Part shown: positions 13,884-63,529 of the stretch, piece after piece
How the letters are laid out: each line of letters begins with the position of its first letter
Position numbering within the stretch: the stretch's first letter is position 1
Source of the DNA: Nocardia asteroides
GTDB taxonomy: Bacteria; Actinomycetota; Actinomycetes; Mycobacteriales; Mycobacteriaceae
DNA length: 64,000 nucleotides
Assembly (NCBI RefSeq): GCF_900637185.1
Contig: NZ_LR134352.1
Location: 4,330,001-4,394,000, forward strand
Direction: 5' to 3'
Notes under the pieces: generated by a model
The model's database searches: none
Told to the model about the DNA's origin: nothing
What the model saw: only the letters and a program-made list of their open reading frames with translations
Program-made: the position numbers and the translations under genes

Positions 13884-13897
13884 TATAACGTGTTCTA
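13884..13897. promoter_or_regulatory. KstR-type operator
   Basis: The 14-mer TATAACGTGTTCTA fits the known KstR consensus TnnAACnnGTTnnA at every fixed position. It sits 4 bp upstream of the ribosome-binding site of the flavoprotein gene and inside the intergenic region shared with the divergent hydroxylase. KstR is the TetR repressor of sterol ring and side-chain catabolism in mycobacteria and rhodococci. No kstR gene is in this window. Confidence 0.6.
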
Positions 13898-45282: not shown

Positions 45283-48007
<2,725 letters not shown>

Positions 48008-49275: not shown

Positions 49276-49342
49276 CAGGCCTGTCCTCTCCCGTCGGCCG
49301 GGTCGGCCGACATCGACTCCGGCCACCCTACCCCGCCGCCAT

Positions 49343-49360
49343 GGACACCTGTCCGGAACG
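49343..49360 (+). promoter_or_regulatory. Regulon site 1 (distal operator of aldehyde dehydrogenase operon)
   Basis: GGACACCTGTCCGGAACG matches the 18-bp element found at four other positions in this cluster (consensus RGACANSTGTCYRGACAT). It sits just upstream of the -35 box of the aldehyde dehydrogenase promoter, 55 bp from the proximal copy. Confidence 0.65.
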
Positions 49361-49365
49361 GAGCC

Positions 49366-49395
49366 TTGCCGATCCGCACACCGGTGAAATATAGT
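49366..49395 (+). promoter_or_regulatory. Promoter of the aldehyde dehydrogenase operon
   Basis: TTGCCG at 49366-49371 and TATAGT at 49390-49395 are 18 bp apart and lie between the two operator copies. The -10 is one base from the consensus. Operators on both sides fit repression by looping or by blocking RNA polymerase. Confidence 0.55.
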
Positions 49396-49397
49396 CC

Positions 49398-49415
49398 AGA
49401 CACCTGTCCAGACAT
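49398..49415 (+). promoter_or_regulatory. Regulon site 2 (proximal operator)
   Basis: AGACACCTGTCCAGACAT overlaps the expected transcription start of the aldehyde dehydrogenase operon and ends 13 bp before its GTG. It has 16 of 18 positions in common with the reverse of the site at 60613-60630. Confidence 0.7.
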
Positions 49416-49428
49416 CTAAGGAGACACG

Positions 49429-50901
49429 GTGGCGAGCGACTTGCGGCCCAGTGACGGCACCCCCTTGCTCATCGACGGAAAGCTGGTCCCCGGGTCCGCG
49501 GGCGTGTTCGACACGGTCGACCCGGCGACCGGCGCGCGCCTCGGCGCCGCCGCCGATGCCACCGCCGACGACATGTCGGCGGCGATCGCCGCGGCGCGCA
49601 CGGCTTTCGACGAGACCGGCTGGTCCACGGACCCGGCGTTGCGGGCGCGCTGTATCCGGCAGCTGCGCGACGCCGCGCTCGACCACATCGAACAGTTGCG
49701 CGCGATCACCATCGCCGAGGCGGGCGCGCCACGCATGCTCACCTCCGGCCCGCATCTGGAGGGCCCCGTCCACGATCTGGGCTGGTTCGCCGACCTGGCC
49801 GAGAGCTACGCGTGGCGAACCGACCTGCCCGTCGCCGAACCACTCGGGATGCGCACGGCCCGGCAGCTGCGGCGCGAAGCCGTCGGCGTGGTCGGCGCGA
49901 TCACGCCGTGGAACTTCCCGCATCAGATCAACCTGGCCAAGATCGGACCGGCACTGGCCGCGGGCAACACCGTCGTGCTCAAACCGGCGCCCGATACCCC
50001 TTGGTGTGCAGCGGCTTTCGGTATTCTGGCCGCCGAGCACACCGACATCCCGGCCGGTGTCCTCAATGTGGTGACCTCCTCCGATCATCTGCTCGGCGCC
50101 CAGCTCACCGAGGATCCGCGGGTCGATCTGGTGTCGTTCACCGGTTCCACCCGCACCGGCAAGTCGGTGATGGCCGCCGCGGCGGCCACGGTGAAGAAGG
50201 TGTTCCTCGAGCTCGGCGGCAAGTCGGCGTTCGTGGTGCTCGACGACGCCGACCTGCGCACGGCGTGCGGAATGGCGGCGTTCGCGGTGTGCGTGCACGC
50301 CGGTCAGGGCTGTGCGCTCTCCACCCGCCTGCTCGTACCGCGAGCGAAGTACGACGAGGCCGTGGCGATCACCGCCAGAGCACTGGCCGGGATCCGGCCG
50401 GGCGATCCGGACAACGCGGGCACCGTCTGCGGACCGCTGATCTCGTCCCGCCAGCGTGAGCGCGTCGAGGGCTACCTCGACCTGGCCCGCAGCGAGGGCG
50501 GCACCATCGTCGTCGGCGGCGGTCGCCCCGCCGAGCGCGAGGCGGGCTGGTTCGTCGAACCGACCCTCATCACCGGACTGTCCCCCGATTCGGTGGTCGC
50601 GCAGGAGGAGATCTTCGGGCCGGTCCTGGTGGTGCTCCCCTACGACGACGATGACGACGCCATCCGCGTCGCCAACAACTCGCCCTACGGGCTGTCGGGC
50701 TCGGTCTGGGGCAGCGATCCCGACCGGGTCGACAAGGTCGTCTCCGGCATCCGCACCGGCACCCTGTCGGTCAACGGCGGCACCTGGTACTCGGTCGACG
50801 CTCCGTTCGGCGGCTACAAGCAGTCCGGCATCGGCCGCGAGATGGGCGTGGCCGGGTTCGAGGAGTACCTCGAGACCAAGCTCGTCGCCTACCCGGCCTG
50901 A
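49429..50901 (+). CDS. Aldehyde dehydrogenase (AldA/Rv0768-like)
   Basis: NAD-dependent aldehyde dehydrogenase, 490 residues. It has PWNFPHQINLAKIGPALAAGNTVVLKPAPDTP, the catalytic Glu261 in LELGGKS and Cys295 in GQGCALSTR, and ends with the expected GYKQSGIGREMG. It is first in an operon of four genes in the same order as I recall for M. tuberculosis aldA-Rv0769-Rv0770-Rv0771. The GTG start has an AAGGAGA site. Two operators of the local regulon flank its promoter. It may oxidise an aldehyde formed from a sterol or terpenoid side chain; the substrate is not known. Confidence 0.93.
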   Translation: MASDLRPSDGTPLLIDGKLVPGSAGVFDTVDPATGARLGAAADATADDMSAAIAAARTAFDETGWSTDPALRARCIRQLRDAALDHIEQLRAITIAEAGAPRMLTSGPHLEGPVHDLGWFADLAESYAWRTDLPVAEPLGMRTARQLRREAVGVVGAITPWNFPHQINLAKIGPALAAGNTVVLKPAPDTPWCAAAFGILAAEHTDIPAGVLNVVTSSDHLLGAQLTEDPRVDLVSFTGSTRTGKSVMAAAAATVKKVFLELGGKSAFVVLDDADLRTACGMAAFAVCVHAGQGCALSTRLLVPRAKYDEAVAITARALAGIRPGDPDNAGTVCGPLISSRQRERVEGYLDLARSEGGTIVVGGGRPAEREAGWFVEPTLITGLSPDSVVAQEEIFGPVLVVLPYDDDDDAIRVANNSPYGLSGSVWGSDPDRVDKVVSGIRTGTLSVNGGTWYSVDAPFGGYKQSGIGREMGVAGFEEYLETKLVAYPA

Positions 50902-50929
50902 TCATCCCTATTTCCGAGGAGTTCTCGAC

Positions 50930-51679
50930 ATGACCCGATTCACCGACCGCACCGCCGTCGTCACCGGCGCGGCCCAGGGCATCGGCGCCGCCTATGCCAA
51001 GGCGCTCGCCGCCGAGGGCGCGCGCGTCGTCGTCGCCGACCTCAATATCGAGGCCGGCACCGCGGTGGCGAAGGAGATCACCGAGGCGGGCGGCACCGCC
51101 GTCTTCCACGAGGTCGACGTCGCCCAGCCCGAATCCGCCCTCGCGCTCGCCGCCTTCACCACCGAAACCTTCGGCGGCATCGACCATCTGGTGAACAACG
51201 CCGCCATCTACGGCACCATGAAACTGGACCTGCTGCTCACCGTGCCGTGGGACTACTACAAGCACTTCATGAGCGTGAATCTCGACGGCGCGCTCAACGT
51301 CACCCGCGCGGTGTGGCCGGTGATGGCCAAGAGCGGCGGTTCCATCGTCAATCAGTCCTCCACCGCGGCCTGGGTGTACTCGGGCTTCTACGGCCTGGCC
51401 AAGGTCGGCATCAACGGGCTGACCCAGCAGCTCTCCTTCGAACTCGGCGGCTCCAACATCCGGATCAATGCCATCGCGCCCGGCCCGATCGACACCGACG
51501 CCACCAAGTCGGTCACCCCGCCGAGCATCGTCGCCGACATGGTGAACCGGCTGCCGCTCAAGCGGATGGGCACCCCGCAGGATCTCGTCGGGGCCTGCCT
51601 GTACCTGCTGTCCGACGAGGCGGCCTGGGTCACCGGGCAGATCTTCAATATCGACGGCGGGCAGGTGTTCCGGTCATGA
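50930..51679 (+). CDS. Short-chain dehydrogenase (Rv0769-like)
   Basis: A 249-residue classical SDR with TGAAQGIG at about residues 12-19, NNAA at 89-92, catalytic Ser143/144 in NQSSTAAW and Tyr154-x3-Lys158. The C-terminus NIDGGQVF is typical. A GAGGAG site lies upstream of the ATG. Its stop overlaps the next start (ATGA). Within the operon it probably handles the alcohol/ketone step adjacent to the aldehyde dehydrogenase. Confidence 0.93.
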   Translation: MTRFTDRTAVVTGAAQGIGAAYAKALAAEGARVVVADLNIEAGTAVAKEITEAGGTAVFHEVDVAQPESALALAAFTTETFGGIDHLVNNAAIYGTMKLDLLLTVPWDYYKHFMSVNLDGALNVTRAVWPVMAKSGGSIVNQSSTAAWVYSGFYGLAKVGINGLTQQLSFELGGSNIRINAIAPGPIDTDATKSVTPPSIVADMVNRLPLKRMGTPQDLVGACLYLLSDEAAWVTGQIFNIDGGQVFRS

Positions 51680-52569
51680 GCACTCCGATCCGCCTGGGCT
51701 ACATCGGCCTGGGCAATATGGGCGCGCCGATGGCCGAGCGGCTGATCGACTGGCCCGGCGGGCTGGTGGTCTGCGACGCGCGTCCCGCCGCCACCGCGAC
51801 GTTCGCCGAGGCCGGGGCCGCGGTGGCCGCCACCCCGGCGGCGGTGGCGGCCGAGGCGACGGTCATCTCGATCACCGTCCTCGACGACGTGCAGGTGCGC
51901 GAGGTCGTCACCGGCCCCGACGGCATCCTGCGCACCGCGCGTCCGGGCACGGTGATCGCCGTGCACTCCACCATCGCCGACAGCACCGCCGTCGAGCTGG
52001 CGGCCGAATGTCGCGCGCACGGTGTCGATCTGGTCGACGCGCCGGTCAGCGGCGGGGCGCCCGGTGCGAAACAGGGGCGCCTCGCCGTCATGGTCGGTGG
52101 CAGCGAGACCGCCTTCGCCGCCGTCGGCGCGCCGTTCGCCCGCTGGGCCGATCTGGTGGTGCACGCCGGGCCGGTGGGGTCGGGCACGCGAATGAAGCTG
52201 GCGCGCAACCTGTTGCATTTCGTGGCCTTCACCGCCGCGACCGAGGCCGCGCGGCTGGCCGAGAGCGCGGGCCTGGATCTGCGGCGGCTGGGCGAGGTGG
52301 TCCGGCATTCCGACGGCGTCACCGGCGGCCCGGGCGCCATCCTCTGGCGCGCGAGCACCGCGCAACTCGAGCTCGACGATCCGTGGCTGCCGATCATGTC
52401 CCATGTGCGTGACCTCGGCGAGAAGGATCTCGCGCTCGCGCTGGCCCTGGGCGAGCGGCTCGGGGTGGATCTGCCCCTGGCCCAGCTCAGTTCCGAACAT
52501 CTCGCCGCGGGTCTGGGACTCGCGCATGCCGCCGTGACCGTCGCGGCCGACACCGACAGGAGCCACTGA
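51676..52569 (+). CDS. 3-Hydroxyisobutyrate-dehydrogenase-family oxidoreductase (Rv0770-like)
   Basis: A 297-residue NAD(P)-binding beta-hydroxyacid dehydrogenase. It starts MSTPIRLGYIGLGNMGAPMAERLIDWPG, with the substrate-binding motif VDAPVSGGAPGAKQGRLAVMVGG and the catalytic Lys region in SGTRMKLARNLLHF. It overlaps the SDR by ATGA and shares one base with the next start (TGATG). It would oxidise a 3-hydroxy acid or reduce a semialdehyde. Its conservation beside CYP51 in relatives suggests a linked but undefined pathway. Confidence 0.92.
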   Translation: MSTPIRLGYIGLGNMGAPMAERLIDWPGGLVVCDARPAATATFAEAGAAVAATPAAVAAEATVISITVLDDVQVREVVTGPDGILRTARPGTVIAVHSTIADSTAVELAAECRAHGVDLVDAPVSGGAPGAKQGRLAVMVGGSETAFAAVGAPFARWADLVVHAGPVGSGTRMKLARNLLHFVAFTAATEAARLAESAGLDLRRLGEVVRHSDGVTGGPGAILWRASTAQLELDDPWLPIMSHVRDLGEKDLALALALGERLGVDLPLAQLSSEHLAAGLGLAHAAVTVAADTDRSH

Positions 52570-52955
52570 TGACCGACGACGCCCGCGCCCGGGGCCTGGC
52601 CCGGATGAAAGAGGTCTACGGCTGGCAGCCGCCGGAGATCGACTCCGCGCACTTCGCCACCACCGTCGACCATCTCTTCGCCGAGATCTGGTCCAGGCCT
52701 GGTCTGAGCGACCGGGACCGGCGCCTGCTGCTGCTGGGCGCGCTCACGGCGCAGGGCCGGATGGAGACCGCCGAGATCCAGATCCAGGGCGCGCTGCACA
52801 ACGAGGAGTTCACCGAGGAACAGCTGCACGAGATCGCGCTGTTCCTGTGCCACTACGTGGGCTGGCCCAACGGAACCCGGCTCGAGACCGCGATCGGCAC
52901 GGTCGTGCGGCGGCTCGGCGAGGAAGGCGGGCCGCGCATGCGCAGGCTGAAATAG
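52569..52955 (+). CDS. Carboxymuconolactone-decarboxylase-family protein (Rv0771-like)
   Basis: A 128-residue helical protein of the CMD/AhpD fold (LSDRDRRLLLLGALTAQGRMETAEIQIQGALHNEEFTEEQLHEIALFLCHYVGWPNG). It lacks the CxxC of AhpD and keeps the His-rich HYVGWP segment of the decarboxylase branch. It is the last gene of the four-gene operon; a hairpin follows. It may be a decarboxylase or an accessory protein; true muconolactone activity is not implied. Confidence 0.88.
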   Translation: MTDDARARGLARMKEVYGWQPPEIDSAHFATTVDHLFAEIWSRPGLSDRDRRLLLLGALTAQGRMETAEIQIQGALHNEEFTEEQLHEIALFLCHYVGWPNGTRLETAIGTVVRRLGEEGGPRMRRLK

Positions 52956-52988
52956 CCGAGAAGCCCGGCGCGATGGTCCGATTGCGGT

Positions 52989-53022
52989 GGCTGTCCGGAT
53001 TCCCCGCGGAAACCGGACAGCC
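52989..53022 (+). terminator. Hairpin after the aldehyde dehydrogenase operon
   Basis: GGCTGTCCGG and CCGGACAGCC form a perfect 10-bp stem, extended inside by TTCC/GGAA. It starts 33 bp after the CMD stop and precedes the TetR promoter. No T-run follows, so termination is probable but not certain. Confidence 0.6.
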
Positions 53023-53074
53023 GCCGCCGTCGCGCGTCGACTTTTCCGGCCATTCGACACACAATCGCACCTTG

Positions 53075-53104
53075 TTGCTGTATTCTCCGCAGGCCGACTA
53101 ACAT
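53075..53104 (+). promoter_or_regulatory. Candidate leaderless promoter of the TetR gene
   Basis: TTGCTG (53075-53080) and TAACAT (53099-53104) are 18 bp apart and place the start of transcription at or next to the GTG at 53111, so the message could be leaderless. The sequence around the start (CTGGTGTCC) resembles only half of the regulon element. Confidence 0.4.
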
Positions 53105-53110
53105 AGACTG

Positions 53111-53698
53111 GTGTCCGAAAAGAATTCTGATTCCGCGATTCTGGAAGCCACCCGCCGGCGCCTGACCGAGAAGCAGGCCGACACCGTCGACCGGCTGACC
53201 AGGGCCGCGGTCGAGGTGATCACCCGGGAGGGATACGCCGCGACCACCGTGCGGATGGTCGCCGCGGCCGCGGGCGTGGGCACCGCGACGGCCTACACCT
53301 ACTTCTCCTCCAAGGAGCACCTGGTCGCCGAGGTGTTCTGGCGCCGGCTGCTGCAGTTGCCCGCAGTCGAGTTCACCGAGGGCCAGACCGCCGCCGAACG
53401 GGTGGTGACAACGCTGCGCCAGGTCTCGCTCATCGTCGGCGACGAAGCCGAACTGGCCGGCGCGGTCACCAGCGCGCTGCTCGGCCAGGATCCCGACGTC
53501 GCGCATCTGCGCCTGCGGATCGGTCTCGAGATCCGCCAGCGCATCGAGAGCGCCCTGGGTCCCGAACCCGATGTCGCGGTATTGGAATCCTTCGAAATGC
53601 TCTACGCGGGCGCGCTGGTGCGCGCGGGAATGGGCTACGGCAGCTACAGCGAAATGGCCGATCGAATCGAGAAGACCGTGCACCTGATTCTCGGCTGA
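53111..53698 (+). CDS. TetR-family regulator, likely controls this cluster
   Basis: A 195-residue TetR repressor. The helix-turn-helix covers about residues 20-66 (AAVEVITREGYAATTVRMVAAAAGVGTATAYTYFSSKEHLVAEVFWRR). It lies between the aldehyde dehydrogenase operon and cyp51, as the TetR gene does at the M. tuberculosis cyp51 locus. It is the only regulator in the 49-64 kb cluster, so it is the best candidate to bind the five shared 18-bp sites. A strong intrinsic terminator follows. Confidence 0.93.
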   Translation: MSEKNSDSAILEATRRRLTEKQADTVDRLTRAAVEVITREGYAATTVRMVAAAAGVGTATAYTYFSSKEHLVAEVFWRRLLQLPAVEFTEGQTAAERVVTTLRQVSLIVGDEAELAGAVTSALLGQDPDVAHLRLRIGLEIRQRIESALGPEPDVAVLESFEMLYAGALVRAGMGYGSYSEMADRIEKTVHLILG

Positions 53699-53714
53699 CA
53701 ATTCCGGCACAGCG

Positions 53715-53741
53715 AAACCGCCCCCGTTCGGGGCGGTTTTT
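53715..53741 (+). terminator. Rho-independent terminator after TetR gene
   Basis: A perfect 10-bp stem AAACCGCCCC / GGGGCGGTTT, five-base loop, then a run of T residues. It is the clearest intrinsic terminator in the window. It separates the TetR transcript from the cyp51 promoter. Confidence 0.88.
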
Positions 53742-53797
53742 CTTATGCCCGACCAGGCGATCTCATTGCGGTGCCGAGACGAACTGTAGTACCGTCT

Positions 53798-53815
53798 GGA
53801 CACGTGTCTATACAC
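53798..53815 (+). promoter_or_regulatory. Regulon site 3 (cyp51 operator)
   Basis: GGACACGTGTCTATACAC matches the shared element, with the core GGACACGTGTC close to a perfect palindrome. It lies 27 bp before the cyp51 ATG and directly after GTAGTACCGTC, a string also present before the mce-operon site, which suggests related promoters. Confidence 0.65.
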
Positions 53816-53842
53816 GCGACCGACAGGATTGAGAGGTCTTCG

Positions 53843-55198
53843 ATGACACTTCTGAAGCCCCGGCGGGTTTCCGGCGGCGAACACGAGCACGGGCACCTCG
53901 AGGAGATGCGCGCCGACCCGATCGCGCTCATGCGCCGGGTCCGCGAGGAATGCGGCGACGTCGGTGTCTTCGAACTCGCGGGCCGGGATGTGGTGCTGCT
54001 CTCCGGATCCGAGGCCAACGAGTTCTTCTTCCGCGCCGCCGACGACGACCTCGACCAACAGGCCGCCTATCCGTTCATGAAACCGATCTTCGGCGAGGGC
54101 GTGGTCTTCGACGCCAGCCCCGAACGCCGCAAGGAGATGCTGCACAACCAGGCACTGCGCGCGGACTTCATGCGCGGCCACGCCGCCACCATCTCCCGGG
54201 AGGTGGACCGGATGATCGCGGGCTGGGGCGATTCCGGCGAGATCGATCTGCTCGACTTCTTCGCCGAGCTGACCATCTACACGTCCTCGGCGTGCCTGAT
54301 CGGCCCGAAATTCCGCGACGAGCTCGACAGCCGGTTCGCCCAGCTCTACCACGACCTGGAACGCGGCACCGACGCCCTGGCCTACGTCGACCCGTACATG
54401 CCGATCGAGAGTTTCCGCAAGCGCGACGAGTCGCGGGCGAAGCTGGTGGGCCTGGTCGAGGAGATCATGGCGGGCCGGATCGCGAATCCGCCGCAGGACA
54501 AGGACGATCGCGACCTGCTCGACGTGCTGGTGTCGGTGCGCGACGAGAACGGCGAGCTGCGCTTCTCCGCCTCGGTGATCACCGGCATCTTCATCTCGAT
54601 GATGTTCGCCGGCCACCACACCACCTCGGGCACCTCGGCCTGGACCCTCATCGAGCTGCTGCGCCATCCGGAACACCTCGACGGCGTGGTCACCGAGCTC
54701 GACGAGCTGTTCGCCGACGACGCGGAGGTGAGTTTCCGTGCGCTGCGCCAGATTCCGCGCCTGGAGGCGGCCTTGAAGGAGGCCCTGCGGTTGCATCCGC
54801 CGCTGATCATCCTGATGCGGGTGGCGCGCGGGGAATTCGAGGTGTGCGGGCACCGGATCGAACCGGGCGACCTCGTCGCCGCCACCCCGGCGATCTCCAA
54901 CCGGCTCGCGGAGGACTTCCCGGATCCCGACACCTTCGATCCCGGCCGCTACCTCGATCCCGAGCAGGCCGATATCGTCAACCGCTGGACCTGGATTCCG
55001 TTCGGGGCGGGCAGGCACCGCTGTGTCGGCGCCGCGTTCGCGCTCATGCAGATGAAGGCGATCTTCTCGATCCTGTTGCGCGACTGGGAGTTCGAGATGG
55101 CCCAGCCCGCCGACAGCTACCGCAACGACCATTCCAAGATGGTGGTGCAGCTCCAGCAACCCTGCCTGGTGCGTTACCGGCGCCGCACGCGGGACTGA
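53843..55198 (+). CDS. cyp51: Sterol 14-alpha-demethylase CYP51
   Basis: Cytochrome P450 of 451 residues, the same length as I recall for M. tuberculosis CYP51 and very similar to it by memory (RVSGGEHEHGHLEEMRADPIALMRRVREECGDVGVF; ASPERRKEMLHN; the I-helix FAGHHTTSGT). The heme ligand is Cys394 in FGAGRHRCVGAAF, the same number as in the M. tuberculosis enzyme. It removes the 14-alpha-methyl group of lanosterol-type sterols. Unlike in M. tuberculosis, I see no ferredoxin gene beside it, so its electron donor must come from elsewhere. The operator and terminators around it make it a single-gene unit. Confidence 0.96.
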   Translation: MTLLKPRRVSGGEHEHGHLEEMRADPIALMRRVREECGDVGVFELAGRDVVLLSGSEANEFFFRAADDDLDQQAAYPFMKPIFGEGVVFDASPERRKEMLHNQALRADFMRGHAATISREVDRMIAGWGDSGEIDLLDFFAELTIYTSSACLIGPKFRDELDSRFAQLYHDLERGTDALAYVDPYMPIESFRKRDESRAKLVGLVEEIMAGRIANPPQDKDDRDLLDVLVSVRDENGELRFSASVITGIFISMMFAGHHTTSGTSAWTLIELLRHPEHLDGVVTELDELFADDAEVSFRALRQIPRLEAALKEALRLHPPLIILMRVARGEFEVCGHRIEPGDLVAATPAISNRLAEDFPDPDTFDPGRYLDPEQADIVNRWTWIPFGAGRHRCVGAAFALMQMKAIFSILLRDWEFEMAQPADSYRNDHSKMVVQLQQPCLVRYRRRTRD

Positions 55199-55203
55199 AA
55201 CCG

Positions 55204-55234
55204 GAATGGCCGGGCCCCAGGGACCCGGCCATTC
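55204..55234. terminator. Convergent terminator hairpin after cyp51
   Basis: GAATGGCCGGG and CCCGGCCATTC form a perfect 11-bp stem with a nine-base loop, between the cyp51 stop and the stop of the convergent SDR gene. Confidence 0.75.
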
Positions 55235-55237
55235 GTC

Positions 55238-56038
55238 TCACTGCGGCGGTGCGGCCGTGCGCGGGTGACGCAGCGGCGCTTCGGGCTGGACCTCGCTGAC
55301 GATGATGTGCGCGCCGCGCGGGGTACTCACCACCGCGCTCACCGCCGCCGCCATGTCCGAGGCCCGCAGCATGTAGGGGTGCCGGGTGAAGCCCCAGCGC
55401 GACCAGTCCTCCAGCAGCGGACCGACATCCTCGACGGTGGCGTCGGTGCCCATCTCGGTCTGGGTGGGACCGGGCCGCACCATCGACACCCGGACCCCGG
55501 TGCCCTCGAGCTCTTTGCGCATCTGGATCGACAACGCCTCGAGCCCGGCCTTGGCGGCGTTGTAGGCCCCCATCCGGGGCCGCGGCGTCACCGAGCAGTC
55601 CGAGCCGATGAGCACCACGTCACCGCGCTGCCTGGCCACCATGCCCGGTACCAGGCGCTGCATCATGCGGTGCGGTCCGGCCAGGTGCACGTCGAGCTGG
55701 CGCACGAACTCCGCCGAGGCCATCTCGTGGGCGGCGCCGAAGCGCACCACACCGGCCGCGGAGACCAGGATCTCGATGTCGCCGAGTTCCTTCTCCGCGG
55801 CGTCGGCGAACTCGGCCACCGACTCGTCGTCGGTGACGTCGAGCGGATACACGAACGCGACACCGCCCTTGTCCCGGATCGCGGTGGCCAGCGCCTCGCA
55901 GCGGTCGACGCGGCGCGCGCCCAGCGCCACCGGATGTCCCAGGTCGGCGAGGGCGACGGCGGTGGCCGCGCCGATCCCGGACGAGGCACCGGTGATCACC
56001 GCGGGCCGGATCGGCGGGTGCGGGTCGAATCGTGGCAT
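55238..56038 (-). CDS. Short-chain dehydrogenase (Rv0765c-like)
   Basis: A 266-residue SDR with TGASSGIG at about residues 16-23, SAAG at 93-96, Ser146 in LIGSDCS and Tyr159-x3-Lys163 in GAYNAAKAG. It is last in the minus-strand operon behind the ligase-P450 fusion (25-bp gap). The M. tuberculosis cyp51 locus also has an SDR (Rv0765c) next to cyp51, and this is the likely counterpart. It may oxidise a sterol hydroxyl group or act on a side-chain alcohol. Confidence 0.9.
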   Translation of the reverse strand: MPRFDPHPPIRPAVITGASSGIGAATAVALADLGHPVALGARRVDRCEALATAIRDKGGVAFVYPLDVTDDESVAEFADAAEKELGDIEILVSAAGVVRFGAAHEMASAEFVRQLDVHLAGPHRMMQRLVPGMVARQRGDVVLIGSDCSVTPRPRMGAYNAAKAGLEALSIQMRKELEGTGVRVSMVRPGPTQTEMGTDATVEDVGPLLEDWSRWGFTRHPYMLRASDMAAAVSAVVSTPRGAHIIVSEVQPEAPLRHPRTAAPPQ

Positions 56039-56063
56039 GGTCGTACCTTTCTCAGGGGGTTTC

Positions 56064-58925
56064 TCACTCGTAGCGGACCGGCCAGTGCTTGATCCCGTTG
56101 ATGAAGCTCGACCGCAGGCGCTGCGGTTCGCCGACCTGGCGCAGGTGCGGCATGACATCGGCGATGGCGCCGAAGATCAGTTCCAGTTGCAGGCGGGCGA
56201 GATTGGCGCCCAGGCAGTAGTGCGGGCCGGTGCCACCGAACCCCAGGTGCGGGTTGGGATCGCGCAGGATGTCGAAGGTGAACGGGTCGGCGAAGGCCGT
56301 TTCGTCGTAGTTGGCGGAGCTGTAGAACATGGCGACCCGGTCACCGGCCCGGATCGGCCGACCGCCGAGTTCGGTGTCCTCGGTGGCGGTGCGCTGGAAG
56401 GCGATGACCGGCGTGGCCCAGCGCACGATCTCGTCGGCGGCGGTGCGGGGCCGCGTCTCCTTGAACAGCGCCCACTGGTCGGGGTGGTCGAGGAAGGCCT
56501 TCATGCCGTGGGTGGTGGCATTGCGGGCGGTCTCGTTGCCCGCGATGGTCAGCAGGATGACGAAGAAGCCGAATTCGTCGGAGGTGAGGGCTTCGCCGTC
56601 GATGTCGGCGGTGACCAGGGTCGAGACCAGGTCGTCGCCCGGGTCGAGGCGGCGGGTCTCGGCCAGCTGCCAGGCGTAGCCGAGCAGGCCCGCGGTCGCT
56701 TCGATCGGGTCGCCGTACTCCGGGTCGTCGAAGTTGAGCATCTGGTTCGACCAGTCGAACAGGCGATGCCGGTCGGCCTGCGGGACACCGAACAGTTCGG
56801 CGATCGCCTGCAGCGGCAGTTCCCGCGCCACCTGGTCGACGAAGTCGCCGCCCCCGCTGGCCCTGGCCGCCCGCACGATCGCCTCGGCCCGGTCGGCCAG
56901 GGCCCCACGCAGCGCCTCGACCGCGCGCGGGGTGAAGCCACGGGAGATGATGCGCCGCAGCTGAGAGTGCTTGGGCGGGTCCATGTTCAGCAGCAGCGCC
57001 TTGGTCGACTCGAAGGCGTCGCCGGTGACGGTGCCGGGGAAGCGCACCACCGAGCCCTTCGTCTCGGCGGAGAACAGACGCGGGTCGCGGGAGACGGCGC
57101 GCACGTCCTCGTGCCGGGACACGACCCAGAATCCGCCGTCGGCGTGCGGGACGCAGCGATCGTCGGTCTGGCTGTTCCACCACACCGGGGCAGTCTTGCG
57201 CAGGAGGGCGAATTCGGCGGCGGGGGTGCGGTCGGCCCACAGGGCCGGATCGGAGAAGTCCAGTCCGGCGGGCAGCGCGGTCGGGGATGACACGGGTACC
57301 TCCTGGGCCCGGGACGCGGGCGGTCGGTCGAGGGAATGCGAGGACGGGTCGGCGACCGCGTGGTACTCGGCCGCTCGGTCCGGCCGGTGCCACAGCACGC
57401 CGTCACCGGCGGTGGGACCCTCGGCTTTGAGGACCCGTTTGAGGATCTTGTTCGTCGCGGTGGCGGGCAGGTCGGCGGCCAGGCGCACATAGCGGGGCCA
57501 GGCCTTCGGCGAGAGGTCCCGTTGCGCGGCGAGGAATTCCGTGAGTTCGGCCGGGGTGAGTGTCGCGTCGTCGCGCAGGACGAGGGCCGCCATGACCGCG
57601 TCGCCGACCCGGCCGTCGGGCACGCCGTAGACGGCCACCCGGCTCAGTGCGGGCAGGCGTTGCAGGACCCGTTCGATCGGGCCCGCGGCGAGGTTCTCGC
57701 CGTCCACGCGCAGCCAGTCGGCGGTGCGTCCGGCCAGGTACAGCCAGCCCTCGGTGTCGCGGTAGGCGAGGTCCCCGGTCCAGTAGCAGCCGTGCCGGAG
57801 GCGTTCGGCGGTGGCGGCGTCGTCGTTGTAGTAGCCGCCGAACAGGCCGGCGCCGGTGGTGTTGACCAGTTCGCCAATGGCCGCGGCCGGGTTGGTCAGC
57901 GTGCCGTCGGCGTCGAATTCGGCCGGGGCGCATTCGGTGACGGTGTCCGGGTCGTAGACGGCGACGCCGGGATAGCCCTTGCCGACCGAGCCGGGCGGGG
58001 TGCCCGGTTCCCTGGTGATGATGACGGCGAGTTCGGTCGAGCCGAAACCGTCCCACACCGTGCAGCCGAAACGCCGCGCGAAGTCGGCGATGTCGCGATC
58101 GGAGGCCTCGTTGCCGAACGCCACGCGCAGCGGGTTGTCGGCGTCGTCGGGACGTTCCGGGGTGGCGAGGACATACGCCAGCGGCTTGCCCACGTAGTTG
58201 AGATAGGTGATCCCGTACCGGCGCAGGTCGGACAGGAAGGTCGACGCCGAGAAGCGGGCGGGCACCATGGTCGCGCCACTCGCCAGCGCGACACTGAATC
58301 CGCCGAGGATGGCCGCGGAGTGGAACAGCGGCATCGACAGGTAGCACACGTCGTCGGGGCCGAGGCCGAACCGGTCGACCAGGGGCGGCCCGGCGAAGGG
58401 AACCATCATGTGCGCCAACCGGACCGGCTTGGGGTCGCCGCTGGTGCCGGAGGTGAAGATCAGCAGGAAGGTGTCGGCGGCGGTGGGCACGGTGTGCGGG
58501 GTCAGCGGCCCCGCCGTGGCGATCCGGGCCGACCATGCCTCGGTCCCGGTCTCGACCACCCGCACCCCGGGCAGGTCGAGCCCGTTCAGGAGTTCACGGT
58601 GTTCGGGGTCGACGAGCAGGATCTGGATGTCGGCGCGCGCGATGTCGCGGGCGAGCCCCGCACCGCGCCGGGTGTCGTTGATCCCCACGACGACGTAGCC
58701 GCCCAGCGCGCCCGCGGCCAGGGCGACGAGCATGTCGGGGGTGTTACCCAGCAGCAGGCCGACATGCACGGGTCGCGCCGGGTCGGCGAGCGCGAGCACC
58801 GCGGCCGCGACCCGGCGGGCTCGGGCGATGTAGTCGCGCCAGCTCCAGGTCCGTTCCGCGGTGCGGATCGCCGGATTCGGGTCGTCGGCGCGGGCGGTGA
58901 GTTGTGCGGTGACAGTGTCGAACAC
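56064..58925 (-). CDS. FadD17-like acyl-CoA ligase fused to CYP125-like P450
   Basis: One uninterrupted frame of 953 residues. Residues 1 to about 520 are an AMP-binding ligase with LIFTSGTSGDPKPV, DGFGSTELAV, YWTGDLAYRDTEGW and a C-terminal KILKRVLKAEG; by memory it follows FadD17, the ligase for short sterol side chains. A linker of about 25 residues leads into a P450 from about residue 545 with DFSDPALWADRTPAAEFALLRKTAPVWWN, AGNETARN and the heme Cys near residue 904 in GGTGPHYCLGAN, like CYP125, the sterol C27 oxidase. No stop lies between them. A GTG at 57293 with an AGGAGG site could also start a separate 409-residue P450. The GTG start at 58925 has GAGGAG 7 bp upstream. Confidence 0.85.
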   Translation of the reverse strand: MFDTVTAQLTARADDPNPAIRTAERTWSWRDYIARARRVAAAVLALADPARPVHVGLLLGNTPDMLVALAAGALGGYVVVGINDTRRGAGLARDIARADIQILLVDPEHRELLNGLDLPGVRVVETGTEAWSARIATAGPLTPHTVPTAADTFLLIFTSGTSGDPKPVRLAHMMVPFAGPPLVDRFGLGPDDVCYLSMPLFHSAAILGGFSVALASGATMVPARFSASTFLSDLRRYGITYLNYVGKPLAYVLATPERPDDADNPLRVAFGNEASDRDIADFARRFGCTVWDGFGSTELAVIITREPGTPPGSVGKGYPGVAVYDPDTVTECAPAEFDADGTLTNPAAAIGELVNTTGAGLFGGYYNDDAATAERLRHGCYWTGDLAYRDTEGWLYLAGRTADWLRVDGENLAAGPIERVLQRLPALSRVAVYGVPDGRVGDAVMAALVLRDDATLTPAELTEFLAAQRDLSPKAWPRYVRLAADLPATATNKILKRVLKAEGPTAGDGVLWHRPDRAAEYHAVADPSSHSLDRPPASRAQEVPVSSPTALPAGLDFSDPALWADRTPAAEFALLRKTAPVWWNSQTDDRCVPHADGGFWVVSRHEDVRAVSRDPRLFSAETKGSVVRFPGTVTGDAFESTKALLLNMDPPKHSQLRRIISRGFTPRAVEALRGALADRAEAIVRAARASGGGDFVDQVARELPLQAIAELFGVPQADRHRLFDWSNQMLNFDDPEYGDPIEATAGLLGYAWQLAETRRLDPGDDLVSTLVTADIDGEALTSDEFGFFVILLTIAGNETARNATTHGMKAFLDHPDQWALFKETRPRTAADEIVRWATPVIAFQRTATEDTELGGRPIRAGDRVAMFYSSANYDETAFADPFTFDILRDPNPHLGFGGTGPHYCLGANLARLQLELIFGAIADVMPHLRQVGEPQRLRSSFINGIKHWPVRYE
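57291..57304 (-). promoter_or_regulatory. Internal ribosome-binding site at the ligase/P450 junction
   Basis: On the minus strand AGGAGG (57304-57299), five bases and GTG (57293-57291) lie inside the fused frame exactly where the P450 domain begins. It would allow a separate P450 to be made, or it may be the relic of two formerly separate genes. Confidence 0.6.
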
Positions 58926-58936
58926 GGGCGGACTCC

Positions 58937-60571
58937 TCAGCCTTCGACGGCGAGATCGCGCGCCCACCGGTAGTCGGCCTTGCCCGCGGGCGAACGCCGG
59001 ATCTCGCTACAGCGGATGATCGCCTTCGGCAGCTTGTAGCGGGCGATGTGCGCGGCACATTCGGCGAGCAGGTCGGCGTCGGTGACCGCCGCGTCGCGCA
59101 CGTGCACGATGGCCACCACCTCGCTGCCCCACTGCTCCGAGGGTCGCCCGACCACCACCACGTCCAGCACTTCGGGGTGCGCGGCGACCGCGCGCTCCAC
59201 CTCTTCGACGAAGATCTTCTCGCCACCGGAGTTGACGGTGAGATTGTCGCGACCGAGCAGGGCGACGCGCCCGTCCGCCAGCACCGTGGCACGGTCGCCG
59301 GCGATGGACCAGCGCACGCCGTCCACGACCGGGAAGGTGCGGGCGGTCTTGTCCGCGTCGCCCAGGTAGCCCAGCGGAATCCGGCCCTTGCGGCCCAGCC
59401 AGCCCTGCGCGCCGGGCTCGTCCAGTGTCCGGCTCAGCGCGTCGTCGAGCACGGCGGTGTCACCGCCGGCCGGCAGATAGGCGCCCGGCGTGCCGTCGGC
59501 GGCGTCGAAGACCTGCGTCATCTGGATGCCCGCTTCCGAGGAACCGACCGAATCGACCACCAGCACCGGCTTGCCGAACGCGGCGACGAGGCGCTGCCGC
59601 ACCGCCGGGGACAGCGGGGCACCCGCATTGTGCACCGCCGCCAGGAATTCCAGGTCGTAGGGACGGCGTTCGAGTTCCGCGGCGACCGGCCTGGCCATCG
59701 CGTCACCCACCAGCGGCAGGGCGATCACCCGTTCGCGCGCCACCGCGTCGAGCACCGCGGCGGCGTCGAAACGGTCCACGACCGTGGGCAGGACGAGCGT
59801 GCCGCCGTTGGTGACGGCCTGGAACAGCAGCCACTGCGCGGCGCCGTGCATGAACGGCGCGGCCACCACCAGGCGATAGGCGCCGCCCGTCCCGGCGGCC
59901 GAGGCGGCCAGTGCGGCGTAGGAGCCGATCTCCTCACCGGTGCCGAAGCGGGTGCCGCCCATGGCCGCGAGGTAGATGTCCTCCTGGCGCCACAGCACTC
60001 CCTTGGGCATGCCGGTGGTGCCGCCGGTGTAGAGCAGATACAGGTCCTCGCACCGGGTCTCGGGCAGGTCCGGCGCCGTGGTGGCCACCACGTCCTCGTA
60101 GCGAATCGCGCCGGGCAGCAACGGGTTTCCGCTGCCGTCGGCGACCTGGACCAGCAGCACCGCGTCCGTCAGGGCCGGCAGCACCGCCGCCACCCGGGGC
60201 GCGAACTCGTCCTGGTACACCAGGACCCGCACCTGGGCATCGGTCAGCAGGTAGCGCAGTTCCTCGTCGACATAGCGATAGTTGATGTTGAACGGCACCG
60301 CCCGCGCCCGATACGAGCCGATCAGGACCTCCGGGTATTCGGTGCAATTGCGCAGGTAGATCCCCACATGGTCCTGCCCGGACGCGTGGGCGGCCAGCGC
60401 GGACCGCTCGGTCCGGCAGCCGATCCCGCGGCCGGCCAGGAACCGCGCGAAACCGGTACTGCGCCGGTCGGATTCGGCATAGGTCACCCGGCGTTCGCCC
60501 CAGACGACGAACTCCCGATCCGGTATCGCGGCGGCCACGGTCGCGAAGACGTTCGACAACGTGAATGTCAC
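58937..60571 (-). CDS. Acyl-CoA synthetase (FadD19/FadD3-type)
   Basis: An adenylate-forming ligase of 544 residues with YLLYTGGTTGMPKGVLWRQEDIY, VDSVGSSEAGIQMT, and the C-terminal LLGRDNLTVNSGGEKIFVEEVE and RSPAGKADYRWA. This is the subgroup that includes the sterol side-chain ligase FadD19. The GTG start at 60571 is chosen because the frame upstream lacks coding character and a purine-rich stretch lies just before it. It is the first gene of the minus-strand operon, 12 bp ahead of the fused gene, and an operator lies 42 bp upstream. Confidence 0.9.
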   Translation of the reverse strand: MTFTLSNVFATVAAAIPDREFVVWGERRVTYAESDRRSTGFARFLAGRGIGCRTERSALAAHASGQDHVGIYLRNCTEYPEVLIGSYRARAVPFNINYRYVDEELRYLLTDAQVRVLVYQDEFAPRVAAVLPALTDAVLLVQVADGSGNPLLPGAIRYEDVVATTAPDLPETRCEDLYLLYTGGTTGMPKGVLWRQEDIYLAAMGGTRFGTGEEIGSYAALAASAAGTGGAYRLVVAAPFMHGAAQWLLFQAVTNGGTLVLPTVVDRFDAAAVLDAVARERVIALPLVGDAMARPVAAELERRPYDLEFLAAVHNAGAPLSPAVRQRLVAAFGKPVLVVDSVGSSEAGIQMTQVFDAADGTPGAYLPAGGDTAVLDDALSRTLDEPGAQGWLGRKGRIPLGYLGDADKTARTFPVVDGVRWSIAGDRATVLADGRVALLGRDNLTVNSGGEKIFVEEVERAVAAHPEVLDVVVVGRPSEQWGSEVVAIVHVRDAAVTDADLLAECAAHIARYKLPKAIIRCSEIRRSPAGKADYRWARDLAVEG

Positions 60572-60612
60572 TGTTTCCCACACCTCGTCTTCCGCCCGGC
60601 AAGATTGAATAC

Positions 60613-60630
60613 ATGTCCGGACAGGTGTCC
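60613..60630 (-). promoter_or_regulatory. Regulon site 4 (ligase operon operator)
   Basis: Read on the minus strand GGACACCTGTCCGGACAT is the closest match to the consensus of the shared element. It lies 42 bp upstream of the ligase GTG and 69 bp from the mce-side copy. Confidence 0.7.
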
Positions 60631-60698
60631 ACCATACGCAGGTTCGCCGCTTCGTGGCCGAAATTCGCCGTGCCGATCCGCGCCATGTAGTACCGTCC

Positions 60699-60716
60699 AG
60701 ACTTGTGTCCAGATAG
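60699..60716 (+). promoter_or_regulatory. Regulon site 5 (mce operon operator)
   Basis: AGACTTGTGTCCAGATAG lies 32 bp upstream of the first yrbE start, preceded by the same GTAGTACCGTC string as the cyp51 site. It departs from the consensus at the centre more than the other copies. Confidence 0.6.
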
Positions 60717-60748: not shown

Positions 60749-61615
60749 ATGACGCCGGACGGATCCGGGCGTCCGCCGGAGTCGCCGGAGCGGGACGTTC
60801 TCACCGCGAGCGCCGTGCTGCGCCGCACTGCGAGTGAGACGATCCTGGCCGCGCTCGCCACCTTCGGCCGGGCGCTGCGGATGGGCGCGCAGGCTGTGCG
60901 GATCGGGCTGCGGGACGCGGCGCTCGGCCGCTTCCGGGTGCGCGAAAGCCTCGAACAGGCCTGGTTCCTGCTGAAGGTGACCGCGGTGCCGAGCGTGCTG
61001 ATGGCGATCCCGTTCGGGGTGATCCTGTCGGCCCAGGTCGGCAATATCGTGTCCCAGCTCGGGGCGAACTCGATGATCGGCGCGGCCGGTGGGCTCGGCG
61101 TGATCAAGCAGGGCGCGCCCATGGCGGCCGGCATCCTGCTCGGCGGTGCGGGGGCGGCCGCGATCGCGGCGGATCTCGGCGCGCGCACCGTGCGCGAGGA
61201 AGTCGACGCGCTGCGCGTGATGGGGGTCGATCCGGTCCAGCGGCTGGTCGTACCGCGGGTGGCGGCGATGATGCTGGTGGCGCCGCTGCTGAACGTGCTC
61301 ATCATCGTCGTCGGGATCGGGGCGGGCTATGCCGTCGCGGTGGCGGCGCTGGAGGTGACACCGGGCAGCTACTGGGATTCCTTCGGCGCGTTCACCACCT
61401 CGTTCGACGTGTGGGTCTCGCTGGTGAAATCGCTGCTCTTCGGGTTCCTGGTGGTGATCATCGCCTGTCAACGCGGGCTGGAGGCCGGGGGCGGTCCGCG
61501 CGGCGTCGCCGACGGGGTCAACGCCGCCGTCGTCATGTCGGTCGCGGCGATCACCGTGCTCAATACCGTGGTCACCCAGGTGGTCACGATGTTCGTGCCG
61601 ATGCGGGCGGCCTGA
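60749..61615 (+). CDS. YrbE/MlaE-family permease A of an Mce transporter
   Basis: A 288-residue MlaE-type permease with about five hydrophobic segments. It has the typical core QVGNIVSQLGANSMIGAAGGLGVIKQGAPMAAGILLGGAGAAAIAADLGARTVREEVDALRVMGVDPVQRLVVPR, which holds the ABC-coupling EExDAL motif. It pairs with the next gene to form the inner-membrane part of a lipid importer, powered by an MceG-type ATPase encoded elsewhere. An N-terminal polar extension of about 60 residues is present. The ATG follows GAGGGGTAGGCC. Confidence 0.95.
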   Translation: MTPDGSGRPPESPERDVLTASAVLRRTASETILAALATFGRALRMGAQAVRIGLRDAALGRFRVRESLEQAWFLLKVTAVPSVLMAIPFGVILSAQVGNIVSQLGANSMIGAAGGLGVIKQGAPMAAGILLGGAGAAAIAADLGARTVREEVDALRVMGVDPVQRLVVPRVAAMMLVAPLLNVLIIVVGIGAGYAVAVAALEVTPGSYWDSFGAFTTSFDVWVSLVKSLLFGFLVVIIACQRGLEAGGGPRGVADGVNAAVVMSVAAITVLNTVVTQVVTMFVPMRAA

Positions 61616-62470: not shown

Positions 62471-63529
62471 ATGCCGCCGTATTCGCTGCCCGGTACCGAG
62501 GTCGGCCCGTGGCGTGCCCGTCTGCTCGGCGCCTGTACCGCTCTGGTGGTGCTCGCCGGCGCCGTCGCCTGGCAGGTGCGCCCGGATTCGCTCGCCGACG
62601 GCGAGATCGGGGTGGTGTTGCGCACCGACCATGTCGGCGCGGGGGTGCGGCCCGGTACCGATGTGCGGCTGGGCGGGGTCCGGGTCGGCTCGGTCGCCGG
62701 CATCACCGCGGCGGGTGACGGTCGTGAAGACCTCGCGCTGACGCTGCGCGCGGCCGAGCTGTACGGCCTCACCGACCAACTGCGCCTCGAGTTCGCTCCC
62801 GACAACCTGTTCGGTATCACCGCGCTGAACCTCGTCCCGGCCGAGGGTGGCACCGCGCTCACCGACGGTGTCACCGTCGATCTGGGTGGCGCCGACGCGG
62901 GCCGCGTCGCGGATGCCACGCTCGCGGCGCTGCTGCGCTCCACCGGCGAACTCACCGGTGACGTGCTCACGACGAAACTCGCCGGCCTGCTGCACACGAT
63001 CTCCGGCGACCTGCGCGCCTTCACCCCGCTGCTGGAGGCGATCGGCGCGACCGTGCGTGCCTACGCCGAGACCCGGCAGCTGCCGCCCACCGAGCTGGCG
63101 GCCGCGTTCGGGTCGGTGCTGGCGGGCGCACCGCCCATGCTGACCGGCGCGGTGGACGTCCTCGACGCCGCCTACACCAACGAATACCTGCGCTCCCCCG
63201 ACAATCTCGCCCGTTTCGCCGCCTTCTGGGACGACATGCAATATCAGCTCCTGCCCATGGTCACCCAGACCATGACCACCGCCCGCACCCACTTCGCCGG
63301 TCTGACGCCACTCGCCGGAACCGTCCTGGACGAGGTCGCCGCCGCGGTCGGTCCGCCCGGCCGTTCGGCCGAACTGCTCGCCACCCTGCTGGCCCGGGCG
63401 GGCGCCGCGTTCGTCGACACCCCCGGCGGGCCCGTCCTGCGGGTCGCGGTGGAACTCGACGTGGTGCCCGGCCTGGCCGTGCCGTTGCGGGCCGCGCTCG
63501 GCGCACCCGCTCAACCGGGGGCACGCTGA
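62471..63529 (+). CDS. Mce-family substrate-binding protein (first of operon)
   Basis: A 352-residue protein with one N-terminal membrane anchor (LLGACTALVVLAGAVAWQV) and an MCE (MlaD) domain of about 90 residues (DGEIGVVLRTDHVGAGVRPGTDVRLGGVRVGSVAGI; LYGLTDQLRLEFAPDNLFGITALNLVPAEGG). A helical C-terminal half (LLEAIGATVRAYAETRQLPPTELAAAFGSVL) follows, as in MceA-type proteins. It starts at the ATG 5 bp after the permease stop. Mce proteins form a hydrophobic tunnel across the envelope. Confidence 0.93.
   Translation: MPPYSLPGTEVGPWRARLLGACTALVVLAGAVAWQVRPDSLADGEIGVVLRTDHVGAGVRPGTDVRLGGVRVGSVAGITAAGDGREDLALTLRAAELYGLTDQLRLEFAPDNLFGITALNLVPAEGGTALTDGVTVDLGGADAGRVADATLAALLRSTGELTGDVLTTKLAGLLHTISGDLRAFTPLLEAIGATVRAYAETRQLPPTELAAAFGSVLAGAPPMLTGAVDVLDAAYTNEYLRSPDNLARFAAFWDDMQYQLLPMVTQTMTTARTHFAGLTPLAGTVLDEVAAAVGPPGRSAELLATLLARAGAAFVDTPGGPVLRVAVELDVVPGLAVPLRAALGAPAQPGAR

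Follow-up and report, generated by a model that had tools for sequence, protein, structure and literature searches.

How might neighboring operons for a putative sterol importer, the sterol demethylase CYP51 and enzymes of side-chain activation be brought under one control in Nocardia asteroides? The question is raised by a short palindromic element, here called the operator, that recurs in a 64,000-bp stretch of a genome that forms a single contig of 6,983,363 bp (G000:C1:4330001-4394000, the whole of the DNA analyzed, hereafter the window; positions are those of the window unless preceded by G000:C1). A preliminary description of the window had proposed that five copies of an 18-bp repeat place an aldehyde dehydrogenase (aldA) operon, cyp51, a ligase/cytochrome P450 operon (the ligase operon) and an mce operon under one switch, worked by the TetR-family protein encoded at 53111 (TetR 53111) and distinct from KstR. 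We find that the five sites exist and are not due to chance, and that TetR 53111 probably works the operator. The idea of one switch over Mce import, CYP51 and side-chain activation is supported by the confinement of the sites and by their conservation.

All five repeats are present in the window sequence. The 18-bp consensus first given, RGACANSTGTCYRGACAT, is exact at two of them (49398 and, on the minus strand, 60613), shows two or three mismatches at the other three, and is missing one arm. When the sites are extended upstream, a second arm becomes visible at four of them, and the repeat is better described by a 20-bp palindrome, GTCYRGACA-NN-TGTCYRGAC. On the genome scan and the comparison of near relatives described below, this 20-mer replaces the 18-mer as the unit. 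Its copies in the cluster are as follows, with mismatches counted against the 20-mer.

49339..49358, plus strand: distal aldA operator (49343 in the preliminary description), four mismatches, the weakest copy
49394..49413, plus strand: aldA operator, no mismatch; overlaps a -10-like TATAGT at 49390-49395
53101..53120, plus strand: decayed operator at the TetR start codon, six mismatches
53794..53813, plus strand: cyp51 operator, one mismatch; overlaps a -10-like TACCGT at 53790-53795
60615..60634, minus strand: ligase-operon operator (60613 in the preliminary description), three mismatches; -10-like TATGGT at 60636-60631
60695..60714, plus strand: mce operator, two mismatches; -10-like TACCGT at 60691-60696
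G000:C1:4403859-4403878: sixth site, beyond the window, heading a ferredoxin operon, two mismatches

The sites had been said to be confined to the aldehyde dehydrogenase, cyp51, ligase/P450 and mce operons. All four do carry them, but the sixth site, past the window, adds the ferredoxin operon. At the mce promoter the operator is followed by a third half-palindrome unit, up to 60726. One idea is that two dimers would bind GTCYRGAC units spaced 12 bp apart, with three such units at the mce promoter.

The operators are joined to promoter-like boxes. Ahead of the aldA, cyp51, mce and ferredoxin operons, the last two bases of a TAnnGT box are the first two of the operator. This composite -10/operator, TANNGTCYRGACANNTGTCY, has four places in the genome at ≤1 mismatch, each pointing to its operon; at ≤2 mismatches there are 12 matches over both strands, compared with six in the control. 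By eye, a TTGCCG or TTGCGG lies 17-18 bp upstream at the aldA, cyp51 and ferredoxin operons, and no box of this kind was seen at the mce promoter. Transcription would be predicted to start within the operator, and an operator that begins inside a -10-like box fits a repressor.

Genome-wide, the core RGACANNTGTCY occurs at 10 places, against two for the reversed pattern. Five of the 10 fall within 24.5 kb (0.35% of the genome), four of these in the window. The other five, placed by eye, comprise one within a polyketide synthase (PKS)-like frame, one about 65 bp ahead of another TetR gene, and three between or away from listed reading frames. A genome-wide motif search, which the preliminary description had called for, gives a favorable result for the 20-mer and a less favorable one for the 12-bp core: at ≤2 mismatches the 20-mer has four places in the entire genome, all in the 25-kb cluster (mismatches: aldA 0, cyp51 1, mce 2, sixth site 2). 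In the window alone, places at ≤0, 1, 2 and 3 mismatches number 1, 2, 3 and 5, compared with means of 0, 0, 0.025 and 0.45 over 40 first-order Markov sequences. At ≤3 mismatches the genome holds 20 places and the control 36, which is noise level; the ligase and distal aldA sites therefore rest on their position and on the relatives.

Six near relatives keep the operator ahead of aldA, cyp51 and the ferredoxin operon in every case (6/6 each), ahead of mce in 5/6 and ahead of the ligase operon in 4/6. The ligase operator occurs in exactly the four whose locus includes the PRK07798 ligase, and the near relative without an mce operator (G380) has no mce genes within the 32 kb inspected; at these loci, operator and mce or PRK07798 ligase genes are absent together. 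A short-chain dehydrogenase (SDR) gene beside cyp51 has an operator of its own in five of the six, and none in the window. The distal aldA copy, 55 bp from the main site, recurs at ≤3 mismatches in one of the six (G369 only).

The wider set comprised the 80 best-scoring of 572 relatives. Most are Nocardia; Rhodococcus, Mycobacterium/Mycolicibacter, Speluncibacter and Antrihabitans are also represented. The 80 loci are akin to one another and not independent. They contain 217 operator sites at ≤3 mismatches, compared with four in the control. At ≤4 mismatches, an operator lies upstream of aldA in 45/45, TetR in 80/87, cyp51 in 20/28, P450c in 17/25, yrbEA in 4/4 and ligase-2 in 3/3 cases, and upstream of SDR2 in 9/29, CMD in 8/57, ferredoxin in 7/29, HIBDH in 2/47 and BSR in 2/23. 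Operon-internal genes have next to none (SDR1 0/46, CYP125 0/27), and the counts were likewise zero for LIG1 (0/4), YrbEB (0/3), MceA (0/3), a gene without Pfam match ("unknown gene", 0/19) and alcohol dehydrogenase (ADH, 0/1). Control matches upstream number four for TetR, two for CMD and one each for cyp51 and CYP125. In one Speluncibacter locus (L273), the operator stands ahead of a yrbEA homologue (45% identity) that adjoins the cyp51 cluster.

The mce promoter was also surveyed separately, in 29 yrbEA orthologues from other Nocardia (the best 30, own included, of matches in 132 of 148 genomes). An operator is present at ≤3 mismatches in 16 of the 29 (control, 0) and at ≤4 mismatches in 26 (control, 6). 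Placement of the 20-mer matches at ≤1 mismatch in the Nocardia genomes covered the examined clusters; other matches, for example of a GTCCGTACACGTGTCCGGAC type, also recur in these genomes. TetR is missing (E≤1e-45) from three of 148 Nocardia genomes; all three are without a 20-mer at ≤1 mismatch, compared with 74 of the 145 others. Joint loss of regulator and operator was set aside as an argument, the cases being too few.

Among regulators, TetR 53111 stands as the best candidate, as had been proposed, by virtue of the operator at the TetR start in most relatives and of a KstR-like fold. With 13 of 210 candidates scored (22 of 210 in another scan), no second TetR of this type reached E≤1e-20 in the genome, and the nearest named protein, from Nocardia thailandica, is 89% identical. 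Across 71 TetR loci, the TetR start region carries an operator (≤4 mismatches) in 57, compared with five in the control; in the other windows of the same loci the count is 55 of 1997, some of these being regulon promoters. The decay of the start operator is common to the six near relatives (six mismatches; one with five at another place), and the site is intact in most orthologues outside the window's own subgroup.

In a 42-row tree, TetR 53111 groups with six Nocardia rows (99/93) and, with support under the tool's star threshold, with a second Mycobacterium class lacking the cyp51 linkage (91/97); the cyp51/aldA-linked Mycobacterium class lies on another branch (99/95). The latter we take, from synteny, to be the class of Rv0767c, which is itself outside the tree. 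Rhodococcus loci, also outside the tree, encode a TetR 64-68% identical to that of the window beside cyp51, and outside Mycobacterium the window's TetR clade is the cyp51-linked one. The segment ATAYTYFSSK is common to both classes wherever a row covers it, which is in line with a shared operator. Members of the second class (L067-L079, Mycobacterium) have operators at their own start and about 3.8 kb away, the distant one between nicotinamidase-like and glycosyltransferase genes, a target set unlike sterol use. A third class (40-43% identical; L088, L090, L092, L100) has operator-like sites 120-170 bp upstream in 4/4 loci, with two to four mismatches.

The AlphaFold model of TetR 53111 (pLDDT 89.7, pTM 0.81) was compared with known structures. 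Among the best 50 PDB rows of the fold search, template modeling (TM) scores to the query were 0.70-0.75 for the Rhodococcus TetR 3bjb, 0.73-0.80 for KstR and ≤0.66 for the rest. This KstR-like fold suggests a sterol acyl-coenzyme A (acyl-CoA) as ligand.

The genes that the operators would serve within the window, and the regulator gene among them, are these.

49429..52955, plus strand: aldA operon of four genes (aldA 49429-50901; SDR 50930-51679; beta-hydroxyacid dehydrogenase type 51676-52569; CMD 52569-52955)
53111..53698, plus strand: TetR-family regulator, candidate repressor with a KstR-like fold
53843..55198, plus strand: CYP51, 773 bits to M. tuberculosis CYP51 (PDB 1e9x)
55238..56038, minus strand: SDR, final gene of the ligase operon
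56064..57293, minus strand: CYP125-type steroid C26-monooxygenase, 536 bits to PDB 7qke
57294..58925, minus strand: FadD1/FadD17-like acyl-CoA ligase
58937..60571, minus strand: acyl-CoA synthetase, model PRK07798
60749..64000, plus strand: mce operon (yrbEA 60749-61615, yrbEB to 62466, mceA 62471-63529, mceB onward), running past the window

The CYP51 match to 1e9x spans residues 7-449, and the protein is similar enough to characterized sterol 14-demethylases to be placed with them. CYP125 is the best match of the ligase-operon P450, at 536 bits (7qke) and 534 bits (2xn8), compared with 318-320 for CYP124 and CYP268. The beta-hydroxyacid-dehydrogenase-type protein scores under the NCBIfam equivalog cut-offs. 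The FadD1/FadD17-like ligase and CYP125 share one open frame (56064-58967, minus strand) with no stop between them. A strong match (E≤1e-220) is found in 17 of 148 Nocardia genomes, and in none of the 16 other than its own does it span ligase and CYP125; the CYP125 gene has its own AGGAGG and a GTG start. No paper related to such a fusion was found in the open-licence PMC literature. We treat the two as adjoining genes without an intervening stop rather than as a proven fusion.

The operon at the sixth site (minus strand) encodes a ferredoxin, a 183-aa protein, a protein without Pfam match, a P450 and an ADH above the cut-off of the NDMA-dependent model. The 183-aa protein has a SnoaL_2 match below threshold, and its Y36, Y42, Y77, Y79, D132 and D135 correspond, with a constant offset of one, to all six of the 8,14-sterol reductase (8,14-Bsr) residues Y37, Y43, Y78, Y80, D133 and D136; it is predicted to be 8,14-Bsr-like in activity. 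The gene without Pfam match is flanked by the 8,14-Bsr-like gene and the P450 (G000:C1:4401752-4402969; L011:11752-12969, minus strand). Its homologues adjoin the Bsr-like gene in several relatives, making it a candidate new sterol gene. Just upstream of the cluster, at 45283-47972 on the minus strand, translations indicate a catalase-peroxidase-like gene with a Fur-type regulator gene before it.

We favor, with moderate confidence, the reading that TetR 53111 is a KstR-like repressor that acts on the 20-mer, would be released by a sterol-CoA and controls operons for the uptake and processing of methylsterols. From the computed sites, their confinement and conservation, the promoter-box overlap, the fold and the enzyme families, we infer binding, repression, inducer, substrate and transport in the following way. 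TetR 53111 would bind the 20-bp palindrome, which starts in the -10 box, and once bound would keep RNA polymerase off the aldA, cyp51, ligase/CYP125, mce and ferredoxin/8,14-sterol-reductase/P450/ADH operons. The likely inducer would be the CoA thioester of a sterol side-chain acid, a product of the regulon's own CYP125 and ligases. Its binding would release the repressor and allow expression of the Mce importer together with enzymes for demethylation and side-chain activation of 14-methylsterols of the lanosterol or cycloartenol type; the product would enter the KstR-controlled cholesterol pathway. Gene content points to sterol import by the regulon, and the presence of CYP51, ferredoxin and an 8,14-Bsr-like protein in it was counted for the methylsterol explanation.

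The gene types of the cluster resemble those of the KstR regulon and the fold of TetR 53111 resembles that of KstR, so control of the cluster by KstR had to be weighed. The preliminary description had set the switch apart from KstR, and this separation stands. A genome scan for the KstR consensus gives 57 places (control, 15), and among the matches listed, which run up to 5.71 Mb, none lies at 4.379-4.404 Mb, nor indeed between 4.344 and 4.675 Mb; the only listed place in the window is at 13884-13897, TATAACGTGTTCTA. TetR 53111 scores 45.4 bits against the KstR model NF033703 of NCBIfam, compared with a cut-off of 280, and the genome's KstR is encoded elsewhere, at 1.25 Mb (334.8 bits). Two KstR-consensus places directly precede another mce operon (yrbEA at 1333003, 41% identical), one of seven in the genome (14 MlaE-family matches); apart from the window's own, none of these seven has an operator better than five mismatches within 500 bp upstream. 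We reject KstR control of the cluster as hardly credible.

Chance resemblance or a dispersed repeat we give no credence. Five core places do lie elsewhere and the 20-mer is at noise level at three mismatches, but the genome scan, the excess over the Markov sequences (three window places at ≤2 mismatches where 0.025 were expected) and the positions kept at orthologous promoters rule it out. It is improbable that the element, though real, is bound by a regulator other than TetR 53111. The decay of the TetR's own operator in this genome would allow it, and in the Mycobacterium genomes examined TetR paralogues of two or three classes, with operators resembling one another, occur side by side. Set against this are the operators found at most TetR orthologue starts (57/71 and 80/87) and the single TetR of the kind at the cut-off among the candidates scored. 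A less remote alternative, though still an unlikely one, keeps the same TetR and operator as a general sterol switch for phytosterols or cholesterol metabolites, with CYP51 as one member and no special role for methylsterols. CYP125 and the ligases are side-chain enzymes in general. Phytosterols have no 14-methyl group. In Mycobacterium sp. VKM Ac-1817D, phytosterol raises the operons of the related "motif X" regulon, 12 of 14 by >3-fold (PMC6593523), and by analogy methylsterols need not be the sole inducer. A general switch does not account for the joint occurrence of CYP51, ferredoxin and 8,14-Bsr with the operator, and one may speculate that commercial phytosterol contains methylsterols.

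Several observations weigh against the favored reading, the phytosterol response of the Mycobacterium regulon (PMC6593523) among them. By score, the ligase site (three mismatches) and the distal aldA site (four) are at noise level. Of the 26 mce operators found at ≤4 mismatches, 10 have exactly four, a level at which the control finds 6/29, and three of the 29 yrbEA orthologues have no operator nearby (L125 and L131 without one, L136 with one only 850-1025 bp upstream). The TetR's own operator is decayed here, at six mismatches, and autoregulation is no argument in this genome. TetR 53111 resembles KstR in its fold (20-24% identity) but does not belong to the same sequence family (45 bits versus 280). 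Finally, the >50 promoter-region sites of Rv0767c in M. tuberculosis, found by chromatin immunoprecipitation sequencing (ChIP-seq) and enriched in GAC and GTC, do not look like a small regulon (PMC10312376); their number argues that this paralogue binds widely.

On a broader and more tentative reading, to which we grant somewhat less than even chances, these bacteria would possess a second, KstR-like sterol switch beside KstR, and its regulon would form a complete route for 4,4,14-trimethylsterols. The route would include a dedicated Mce importer; C14 demethylation would fall to CYP51, together with ferredoxin and 8,14-Bsr, and the side chain to CYP125 and the ligases. The C4 methyls could be removed by oxidation and oxidative decarboxylation through the P450, the NDMA-dependent-type ADH, the aldehyde dehydrogenase and the beta-hydroxyacid-dehydrogenase-type set, a hypothesis drawn from enzyme classes only. 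If true, the trimethylsterol route would explain why CYP51 is retained in sterol-degrading actinobacteria. A conserved operator that joins CYP51 and CYP125 with ligases, an 8,14-reductase and an Mce importer indicates which genes act together and predicts methylsterols as a substrate class. Candidates for the actinobacterial enzymes of C4 demethylation also follow from it, as does another regulator worth considering in steroid-producing strains.

The regulon is not wholly new. In outline, a TetR regulon linked to cyp51 has been described before: PMC6593523 gives a predicted TetR-linked motif X regulon (Rv0767c) in Mycobacterium, and PMC4482099 a predicted palindrome for Rv0767c in a less significant class (1.2E-14). 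The two systems are alike in a TetR gene beside cyp51/aldA, a palindromic operator, found near the TetR start in relatives, and P450s and aldehyde, alcohol and short-chain dehydrogenases under that operator. Two RGACANNTGTCY cores lie between tetR and aldA in 11/11 of the cyp51-linked Mycobacterium loci examined. The two systems differ in that the window TetR groups with the second, not cyp51-linked Mycobacterium class, and in that the window regulon holds a non-mce4 mce operon, CYP125 and ligases. Orthology of TetR 53111 to Rv0767c, assumed from synteny, is not borne out by the 42-row tree. What is new here is the 20-bp form, its overlap with the promoter box, the different regulator clade, the tie to 8,14-Bsr, the placing of ligases, CYP125 and a non-Mce4 mce operon under this operator, and a gene content that points to 14-methylsterols. 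In the open-licence literature we found neither a non-mce4 operon nor a methylsterol role for the regulon.

The clusters of CYP51, ferredoxin and 8,14-Bsr in PMC13277303 have their counterpart here in CYP51, the ferredoxin and the 183-aa protein that carries all six Bsr residues; in the present genome these genes have an operator in common with an mce operon and side-chain genes. The excerpted text of that paper does not treat the regulation of these clusters and contains no occurrence of "mce". It does report that 8,14-Bsr acts on the CYP51 product and that the M. tuberculosis homologue is active, and cites work in which a Mycobacterium converted lanosterol to a C19 steroid unsaturated at 8(14). 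A review calls it unclear how CYP51 activity matters to the physiology of mycobacteria (PMC6469627). With KstR, the present system shares the TetR family, a place for KstR with 3bjb among the nearest solved folds, and sterol genes that go together with an mce operon; unlike KstR, it has its own gene and operator, and its TetR is far below the KstR cut-off. The window mce operon likewise has the yrbEA-yrbEB-mce layout of the Mce4 sterol importer, but KstR-type sites precede the 1.333-Mb operon, whereas the window operon carries the new operator.

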